Shown: positions 42,901 to 45,900 of the stretch, piece by piece
How positions within the stretch are numbered: position 1 is the first letter of the stretch
How the letters are laid out: each line of letters begins with the position of its first letter
Assembly: GCA_022829145.1 (NCBI GenBank)
Contig: CM040746.1
Span: forward strand, 36,505,712-36,569,711
Direction: 5' to 3'
Length of the DNA stretch: 64,000 bases
Source: Albula goreensis
Taxonomy: Eukaryota; Chordata; Actinopteri; Albuliformes; Albulidae
Program-made: the position numbers and the translations under genes
Notes under the pieces: model-generated
The model's input: the letters and a program-made list of their open reading frames with translations, nothing else
Told to the model about the DNA's origin: nothing
Databases searched by the model: none

Positions 42901-45900
42901 TCCAAACTGTGTACTGAGACTACAGAGAGGAGATAGATGTTAAAAGGGATCATATTCTCCTTCTCTCCTTCATCTCTCACCCTCTCTTTCTCCATCTGTC
43001 TCTCTCTCTCTTTTCTCTTTCTGTCTATTTTTCTCTTCTGTGGCTAAAACATTAAGCACATTTTTTTCTCGACTCTGCTACAATTTCCCTGCAGCTGTGA
43101 GTCAGCAGAATTATGCATGCAACTTAAAATTGCCATAAGTGAATAGGACTCCAAAAGGCAGCGTAAAAGTGTGTTTTGGTAGCCTTTTTTTTTTAAAGGG
43201 AAGTGGTTTCTGTAGACTCATCATAATAGTATATTCTATTGTACAAAGGTACATATTTAGAAAGCACAAAATTACAATATCAGCACCACAAACTCAGGGG
43301 GAATAGAGTGAAACTGTGCAGTATGTAATCATGGCTGTAGGTGTAGGAGTGGCACCATCTCCAATTGCCTTGGAATATCCACAAATGGATATTCATACAG
43401 GAAAAAAAAATCTTCACACACGAGTGATGACAACAAAACTTAAACCAATGCAGATGTGCAGAATTTCCATCAAATCTTTCATCAAGTACCTAACCCAGCC
43501 AGAAATCCCCCAACACCTGGCCAGAATGTGAGTCATCTAGTATGCTGCCCAGATAGGAATGAATAGTCACTGTGGAATCAGCCAGGCTGTGCCCAGCCCA
43601 AAAGCAAATGGCCCTGTCTAATCTAAGGGACCTCAGTAGTGCCCACTCACAAAATGCTGGCAAACATACAGCTGATCCCCACCGCTGTCTGATCCCTACT
43701 GCTCTTTGCTGTTCCTTCAGTCCCAGTCCTAGTGGTGGGTTCTTATGCACAGTATAAGGCAATATCTGAAGCTGAGTAGTTTCAAATGAGTAATTGATAC
43801 ATTATCAACTGATGGCGGTTTTTTTCCATGTCAGCATGTCAGACTTTTTTGTCCCCCTTTTCCCCACCCAAGCGCAGTCTCAGGTTCATGTAGCATCCCT
43901 TTTTTTGGGCAAAAAGGCCCAAACCCGTGCGTTAGTCTGGGTTCTGAGCGGGCCCTGGAGTTTTATCCAGCTGAAACAGTTCCTCTTACTTTGACACAAA
44001 ATATTCCAGAACATCACACTGCGAAATGAGAACCGTAGGACAAATCGTCCCTCAATCGATATTCAAATAACATGAAATTCATTTTGCTCGCTAGGCTGTT
44101 TGTAGCAGCAGTGAGCTGACTCGTGTTGAACTGTGTCTGCGCAGGTTTGTGCAACTCAGCTGATAGCTGGATGATCGTGCCCAACATCAAGCAGAACCAC
44201 TACACCGTTCATGGGCTCCAGAGCGGCACCAAGTACATCTTCATCGTCAAGGCGATAAACCAGGCCGGCAGTCGCAGCAGCGAACCGGGCACGCTCAAAC
44301 CAACAGTAAGCACCTCTTCCTGTTTACCCACAACCATACTGAACCGTTCCATTAGCCCCACCCACTGCCAAAATTAACGCACATGCTCAGAGTGAACAGT
44401 CAGATAAACTGTATTTCCATTGGAATTCACTGTAATATTTGTAACACAAATGCCCTGGTGCTAAACTTATATTTTGTCAAGTGTCGCCTGATTTTAATGC
44501 TTAATTTTAATATGATTATATTGAAAAATTATATGTGCTGGTGCTAAACTTATGTTTTTTTAAGTGTCTCCTGATTTTAATGCTTAGTTTTAATATGATT
44601 ATATTGAAAAATTACATGTATCAAGACCTATGAATTATATCAGGTATTCTCTTGTCTACCTTGAATCAACTAACAGTTTAAACTTTTGAAACATGATGTG
44701 CGGACAAGCAATGAGAACTAAAACCCAGCAGAGAATTTAAGATAAGAATTTTAGGTTATGTCTTTAATTCTGGATTATGTTTTTCATTTTCCGTTTAAGC
44801 CATTTGAATGTGCTGCCGACTTGGCTTACAAGGACTCCCTTGTCAACGAGATTGTGAATGTAAAATAAAGGTTAACTACATAAATATACACTTTGGCTGT
44901 GAAGTGTTGGAGTTTCAGCCAGGAGTCTGACACCAGTGGGCCAAGCAGCGGGCTGATTTTAATTCTATAAAATACCTCATATGTAAGCAAAGTCATGATT
45001 GTTATTCTTTTCCGATTTCCAGGCCAGCCATTCAAGCTGGACCCCAAGTCAGCGCACAGGAAGCTGAAGGTGTCACATGACAACCTGACTGTGGAGCGTG
45101 ACGAGACTTCCTCCAAGAAGAGCCATGGACAGGATCGCTTCACCAGCCAGGGGAGCTACGGCGTGACGGGAAACGTGTACATCGACAGCGGCCGGCACTA
45201 CTGGGAGGCACTGATTGGAGGAAGCACATGGTACGGGAACGACAATTTTTACCTCGGTTTTACTTCACTATTTGAGAGAACTCCATTCTGTTTCGCAGTG
45301 ATGCACAACTTGGGGAATGGAACAGGGTTAGGAGTGTGAGGGACTGTGTAGCCAATCAGATTTAGAGACATCCTAAGGTGGCCAAATAGTTAATGAGTAA
45401 AGACACACACTATGGTCAGAAATTCTTTTCATGCAACAGTTATTCAAACCAGGAGCATCTGCTTGACATCACTGGATAGATATTTTTTTTTTTTTTTAAG
45501 ATTATTTTTGGGGATTTTTCCAGTTTTATTGACAGTTACAGTAGAGAGGCAGACAGAAAATGCAGGAGAGAGAGAGAGAGAGAGCCTGTCCTTATGAGGA
45601 GAGAGAGAGAGAAGGACATGCAGCAAAGGGCCCCAGGGCAGATTAATGACTTAGTGACTGGATCTTGATTGGTATTATATGGTGTTATAAAAGAAAAATA
45701 ATAATATAATACATTCCAAAGGACTGCTCTGCCTGCCTGCGATAAAGAAGAAACTACTCAAAGGAAAGGTGGGAGGACTCCGTTTTACCATTAAAAGTTT
45801 TAGAACTGATACTGAATGAGGAATTCAGGCTTCACTCCCTGTTCTTAACCCACTGATCATAAGAAATTACATCTTTTTATTCATTACCCATACAAGGCAC

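Follow-up and report, generated by a model that had tools for sequence, protein, structure and literature searches.

A One-Base Frame Break in mid1 of an Albula goreensis Assembly, Most Likely an Error of the Assembly Consensus

Results

The window, by which we mean the whole stretch of 64,000 nucleotides of Albula goreensis DNA that was analysed, contains a complete mid1 (TRIM18)-type gene on the plus strand at positions 15293-47011. Its nine coding exons measure 669, 96, 108, 149, 128, 144, 161, 208 and 349 nt (the last including the stop codon), and the introns have GT...AG borders in 8/8 cases. The exons and two sites within them are:

15293..15961, plus strand: coding exon 1, with RING, B-box 1 and B-box 2 (tblastn against human MID1 with 190/223 identities; RING and B-box models of Pfam; donor gtgaga)
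31795..31890, plus strand: coding exon 2, 96 nt, by position presumably coiled coil (tblastn; length equal in both paralogues)
35631..35738, plus strand: coding exon 3, 108 nt, which from its position we also take to be coiled coil (tblastn; length equal in both paralogues)
36941..37089, plus strand: coding exon 4, 149 nt (tblastn; length equal in both paralogues)
37536..37663, plus strand: coding exon 5, 128 nt, by position presumably the COS-box region (tblastn; length equal in both paralogues)
40311..40454, plus strand: coding exon 6, 144 nt, assumed from its position to be the first part of FN3 (tblastn; length equal in both paralogues; alone, without a Pfam match)
44145..44305, plus strand: coding exon 7, 161 nt, second part of FN3 (fn3, 30.2 bits; one base fewer than the 162 nt of both paralogues)
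44290..44306, plus strand: end of exon 7, the site of frame loss (one more base here in both paralogue exons)
45023..45230, plus strand: coding exon 8, 208 nt, PRY (length equal in both paralogues)
45026..45027, plus strand: second AG, located five bases inside exon 8 (as acceptor for the 161-nt exon 7 it would leave the frame open for 668 codons)
46663..47011, plus strand: coding exon 9, 349 nt including the stop codon, SPRY (Pfam SPRY, 67.4 bits)

The domains agree with those of MID1 (TRIM18). Pfam models placed a RING and two B-boxes at the front of the gene (zf-RING_UBOX 31.6 bits, cut-off 25.2; zf-B_box 48.2, cut-off 24.1; ANCHR-like_BBOX 42, cut-off 27), followed by FN3 (30.2, cut-off 25) and SPRY (67.4, cut-off 26.3); the PRY model scored 27.0, slightly below its cut-off of 27.5, and the PRY part matched human MID1 (7qry) at 1.2e-38. 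Against a human MID1 query, identity was 190/223 for exon 1, 49/51 for exon 7, 61/70 for exon 8 and 86/112 for exon 9, and was lowest, at 39/75, in an alignment running past exon 3. The PRY part scored 135.3 bits to human MID1 (7qry) vs 99.4 to human MID2 (7qrz). Judged by these similarities the window gene is MID1 rather than MID2, and a separate mid2-like gene lies elsewhere in the genome. Ten other open reading frames, chosen from the list for the window, had no Pfam match at curated cut-offs, and Rfam gave no match at gathering cut-offs across the whole window.

Three tandem repeats lie in or near the gene: a minisatellite of twelve 49-bp units in intron 6 (42298-42883), a tandem duplication of an 83-bp unit in intron 7 (44455-44619; two copies, 92% matches) and, downstream of mid1, a minisatellite of about thirteen 36-bp units (61560-62033).

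Exons 1-6 form a single open frame, and seven of the eight junctions keep the frame, such that the 7/8 junction alone interrupts what would be one open reading frame across all mid1 exons. Exon 7, bordered by the acceptor cag|GTTTGT and the donor CCAACA|gtaagc, encodes a segment ending ...GTLKPT; the sequence-only reading of this DNA had reported an exon of 161 nt that ends L-K-P-T and loses the frame there, and our analysis confirms this, coordinates included. Joined literally to exon 8 at 45023, exon 7 (last codon 485) leads to a stop 15 codons past the exon, at codon 500, bearing out the earlier estimate of a stop within about 15 codons, and this stop ends 163 nt upstream of the exon 8/9 junction. 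The motif KTNSQPFK, described as conserved across the junction, is indeed found, in full or in part, in human proteins: LKTNSQPFK in MID2 (2dmk), and NSQPFK in both MID1 (7qry) and MID2 (7qrz). A homopolymer mechanism, which had also been put forward, is not established, the alignment gap sitting beside the A's and not necessarily inside a longer A run. Besides the break at 7/8, no further decay was seen in the window mid1.

A search of the genome assembly (G000; 932 Mb in 208 contigs) yielded two relatives of exon 7, one in a second mid1 gene on contig C5, whose exon 1 protein is 95% identical to that of the window, and one in a mid2-like gene on the minus strand of contig C6. With borders taken at the nearest AG and GT, exons 2-8 measure 96, 108, 149, 128, 144, 162 and 208 nt in both paralogues, so that the window gene differs at exon 7 only. 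The 162 nt that the earlier reader had expected for this exon is thus the length in 2/2 paralogues of the same genome, and the flanking exons (window exons 2-6 and 8) have the expected lengths, as that reader had stated; because both paralogues have 162 nt, exon 7 of the window gene is one base short. The mid2-like gene aligned without a break in 9/9 exons. The C5 mid1 has its own defect, in that its last exon matched as two aligned pieces with an overlap of a single base, as a one-base deletion would produce:

L014:1501-1844 = G000:C5:12739710-12740053: last exon of the C5 mid1, one base missing near Gly-Ser/Leu-Ala-Phe, SPRY frame broken as assembled

The mid2-like gene (34.41-34.47 Mb) and the window mid1 (36.52-36.55 Mb) lie about 2 Mb apart on the same contig, G000:C6. 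The three mid-type genes were followed from the best rows of 154 in a search for TRIM exon 1-like sequences and from 143 matches in a search on the SPRY side. TRIM exon 1-like and SPRY-like matches were many on contigs C16 and C3, with SPRY matches also on C7 and C8, a distribution that suggests large expanded TRIM/B30.2 families in this genome. Two mid1 copies and numerous TRIM/SPRY matches also point to a teleost fish as the probable source.

Outside the genome, no relatives of exon 7 were confirmed in viral_contigs (39 pattern stretches) or genome_contigs (575), none were found in plasmid or phage collections, and exon 1 had no confirmed relative in viral_contigs (1 stretch); these collections comprise prokaryotes, phages and plasmids, in which a fish homologue is not to be expected.

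As a control we used the Kv1 potassium channels, which are strongly conserved and mostly encoded by intronless genes. From the 47 matching rows we used 17, representing 12 single-piece genes and two genes split into five pieces in all; the remaining 30 are more distant potassium channels (34-52% identity) that were left unread, six of them listing an internal stop. All 12 single-piece genes were open, including one (L041) with two internal stops at the C-terminal end of its match, the conserved part of which is open over 546 codons. The two split genes form a pair that we take to be kcna7-like, of which the C22 copy has an open frame in each of its pieces, whereas the conserved S4 region of the C8 copy is one base short. 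In total, 13/14 Kv1 genes were open and 1/14 carried a one-base deletion; the matched coding sequence, added up by hand from the spans, came to about 19.4 kb. Kir channel sequences matched at 37 places, where two genes were read at the base level; these had been picked for their broken-looking pieces and so form a biased sample, and seven other rows with stops were left unread. The breaks in these channel genes are:

L049, G000:C8 around 11255650: kcna7-like gene, S4 region (FRI/FKL) one base short as assembled
L061, G000:C25:15574700-15575480: Kir gene, one frame shift of the -1 type as assembled
L062, G000:C11:16788590-16789390: Kir gene, two frame shifts of the -1 type as assembled, the first less certain since it spans a loop of uncertain length

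The genes that were read (mid, Kv1 and the two Kir genes) showed no one-base insertion. With the window gene set aside, 2 deletions fall within about 23 kb of mid and Kv1 coding sequence, or about 0.17 per 2-kb coding sequence; when the C5 mid1 is left out as well, 1 deletion in about 21 kb remains, or about 0.1 per 2-kb coding sequence.

Discussion

The frame break at the end of mid1 exon 7 is truly in the sequence, and its cause is very probably an error of the assembly consensus rather than a real allele. Under this explanation, exon 7 of an ordinary mid1 gene would have lost one base when the consensus was made, and the animal's own exon 7 would most likely have 162 nt and encode a normal FN3-PRY-SPRY protein. 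Of the three options that the sequence-only reading had left side by side (an assembly indel, a damaging allele or compensating splicing), the assembly indel is the best supported, because one-base losses recur in other conserved genes of the assembly: the last exon of the C5 mid1, one of the 14 Kv1 genes and the two Kir genes selected as suspicious. The homologues with an intact exon 7 have the extra base, in 2/2 paralogues. At a deletion rate of about 0.1-0.17 per 2-kb gene, a break in any one gene of this assembly is nothing unusual; and three truly broken genes of 17 would probably exceed the usual supply of real loss-of-function alleles. Moreover, exons 8 and 9, which lie past the break, stay free of stops at 61/70 and 86/112 identity, which argues for constraint until the present or nearly so.

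Several observations speak against a consensus error. The window is gap-free (no N), long tandem arrays and homopolymers as long as 22 bases are written out in it, and its quality looks fair, not that of a crude draft; the deletion lies outside any long homopolymer; and a biological loss shared by the two duplicated mid1 copies, through real loss-of-function alleles, could in principle give the same picture, although the like lesion in channel genes favours a technical cause. We also compared the homopolymers of the window with a second-order Markov simulation: the window has A/T runs of at least 9 in excess of the simulation (33 vs about 10), and its A/T runs of 5-8 are rarer than simulated (319 vs about 416, by hand sums). 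The deficit of runs of 5-8 could reflect mild homopolymer shortening or a plain feature of the genome, and decides nothing.

If the deletion were a real allele, heterozygous or fixed, its mRNA would be mostly lost to nonsense-mediated decay, and the second mid1 or mid2 would cover for it. By the usual rule, a stop more than 50-55 nt upstream of a junction makes a transcript a target of this pathway; with 163 nt between the early stop and the final exon junction, the mRNA would more likely be degraded than yield a stable truncated protein. Were the sequence real, the PRY-SPRY domain would be lost, which the earlier reading had likened to the truncations of Opitz syndrome; the truncated product itself is what the position of the stop makes doubtful. 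Selection on mid1 could be relaxed by the presence of a second mid1 and a mid2-like gene; and MID1 frameshifts are described in Opitz patients (PMC12355088, PMC4160256), with PMC4160256 also reporting aggregation of MID1 in cells upon deletion of SPRY. However, the frame of the C5 mid1 is broken too, so that a real allele would mean that both mid1 genes are broken; the one-base deletions found in channel genes, which are conserved and unrelated to mid1, suggest that the cause is technical and shared, and the window mid1 shows no other decay. We therefore regard a real deletion allele as unlikely. A further reading is that both mid1 genes are truly broken within or just before PRY-SPRY, or that nothing but a five-base shift of the acceptor of exon 8 saves the window copy; this we consider quite unlikely, and if true it would describe a vertebrate that lives without a normal mid1 PRY-SPRY and depends on mid2.

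Local compensation of a real deletion that leaves the conserved frame of exon 7 untouched would have to involve the donor of exon 7, the acceptor of exon 8, an additional microexon or the translation step. When splice pairs were enumerated (donors at 44200-44499 with acceptors at 44960-45079), the best-scoring pair among them that keeps the frame combined the normal donor with the second AG (45026-45027). Such a transcript would read ...GTLKPT-PFKLDPK..., complete but for the loss of two residues, with 668 codons open and 85% identity (564/667) to human MID1; and tandem acceptors a few bases apart are in use in human tissues, according to PMC8055015. The same source states that the upstream acceptor of tandem pairs is in general the more strongly expressed, and the scores here, from a frequency matrix, are 8.1 for the first AG vs -0.5 for the second. 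The second AG is, furthermore, merely part of the conserved Ser-Gln codons and present in the C5 copy with its normal exon 7, and hence shows no sign of adaptation, nor can tandem-acceptor splicing account for the break in the last exon of the C5 gene; rescue by this route is accordingly very unlikely. Intron 7 offers 15 AG-N-GT microexon possibilities, a count that is uninformative. Translational rescue of the SPRY frame by programmed ribosomal frameshifting would call for a -1 shift (worked out by hand), and no in-frame slippery heptamer of the form X XXY YYZ occurs between about codon 20 of exon 7 and the stop; we know of no such mechanism for MID1, and consider it extremely improbable.

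We thus return to the consensus error as the preferred explanation: the earlier observation on the sequence was right, as biology the break is most likely not real, and the mid1 gene is most likely ordinary. Single-base frame breaks in this assembly should consequently not be read as gene loss, and automatic annotation could truncate several conserved genes or mark them as pseudogenes, both mid1 copies included. Were the deletion real, it would amount to a natural experiment on the extent to which mid2 or a duplicate can stand in for mid1.

The window gene has the RING, B-boxes, FN3 and PRY-SPRY in common with human MID1 / TRIM18, the Opitz G/BBB gene. Unlike the human gene, its frame is broken at exon 7/8 as assembled, and the genome contains a second mid1 copy. 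False coding indels and frameshifts have been reported in earlier vertebrate assemblies (PMC9516821). The cases described there differ from ours in that they concern Sanger- and Illumina-based assemblies and were settled with reads, whereas the present case is argued from the assembled sequence; they resemble it in that a short coding indel breaks an otherwise conserved gene, and in that several unrelated genes of the assembly are hit.
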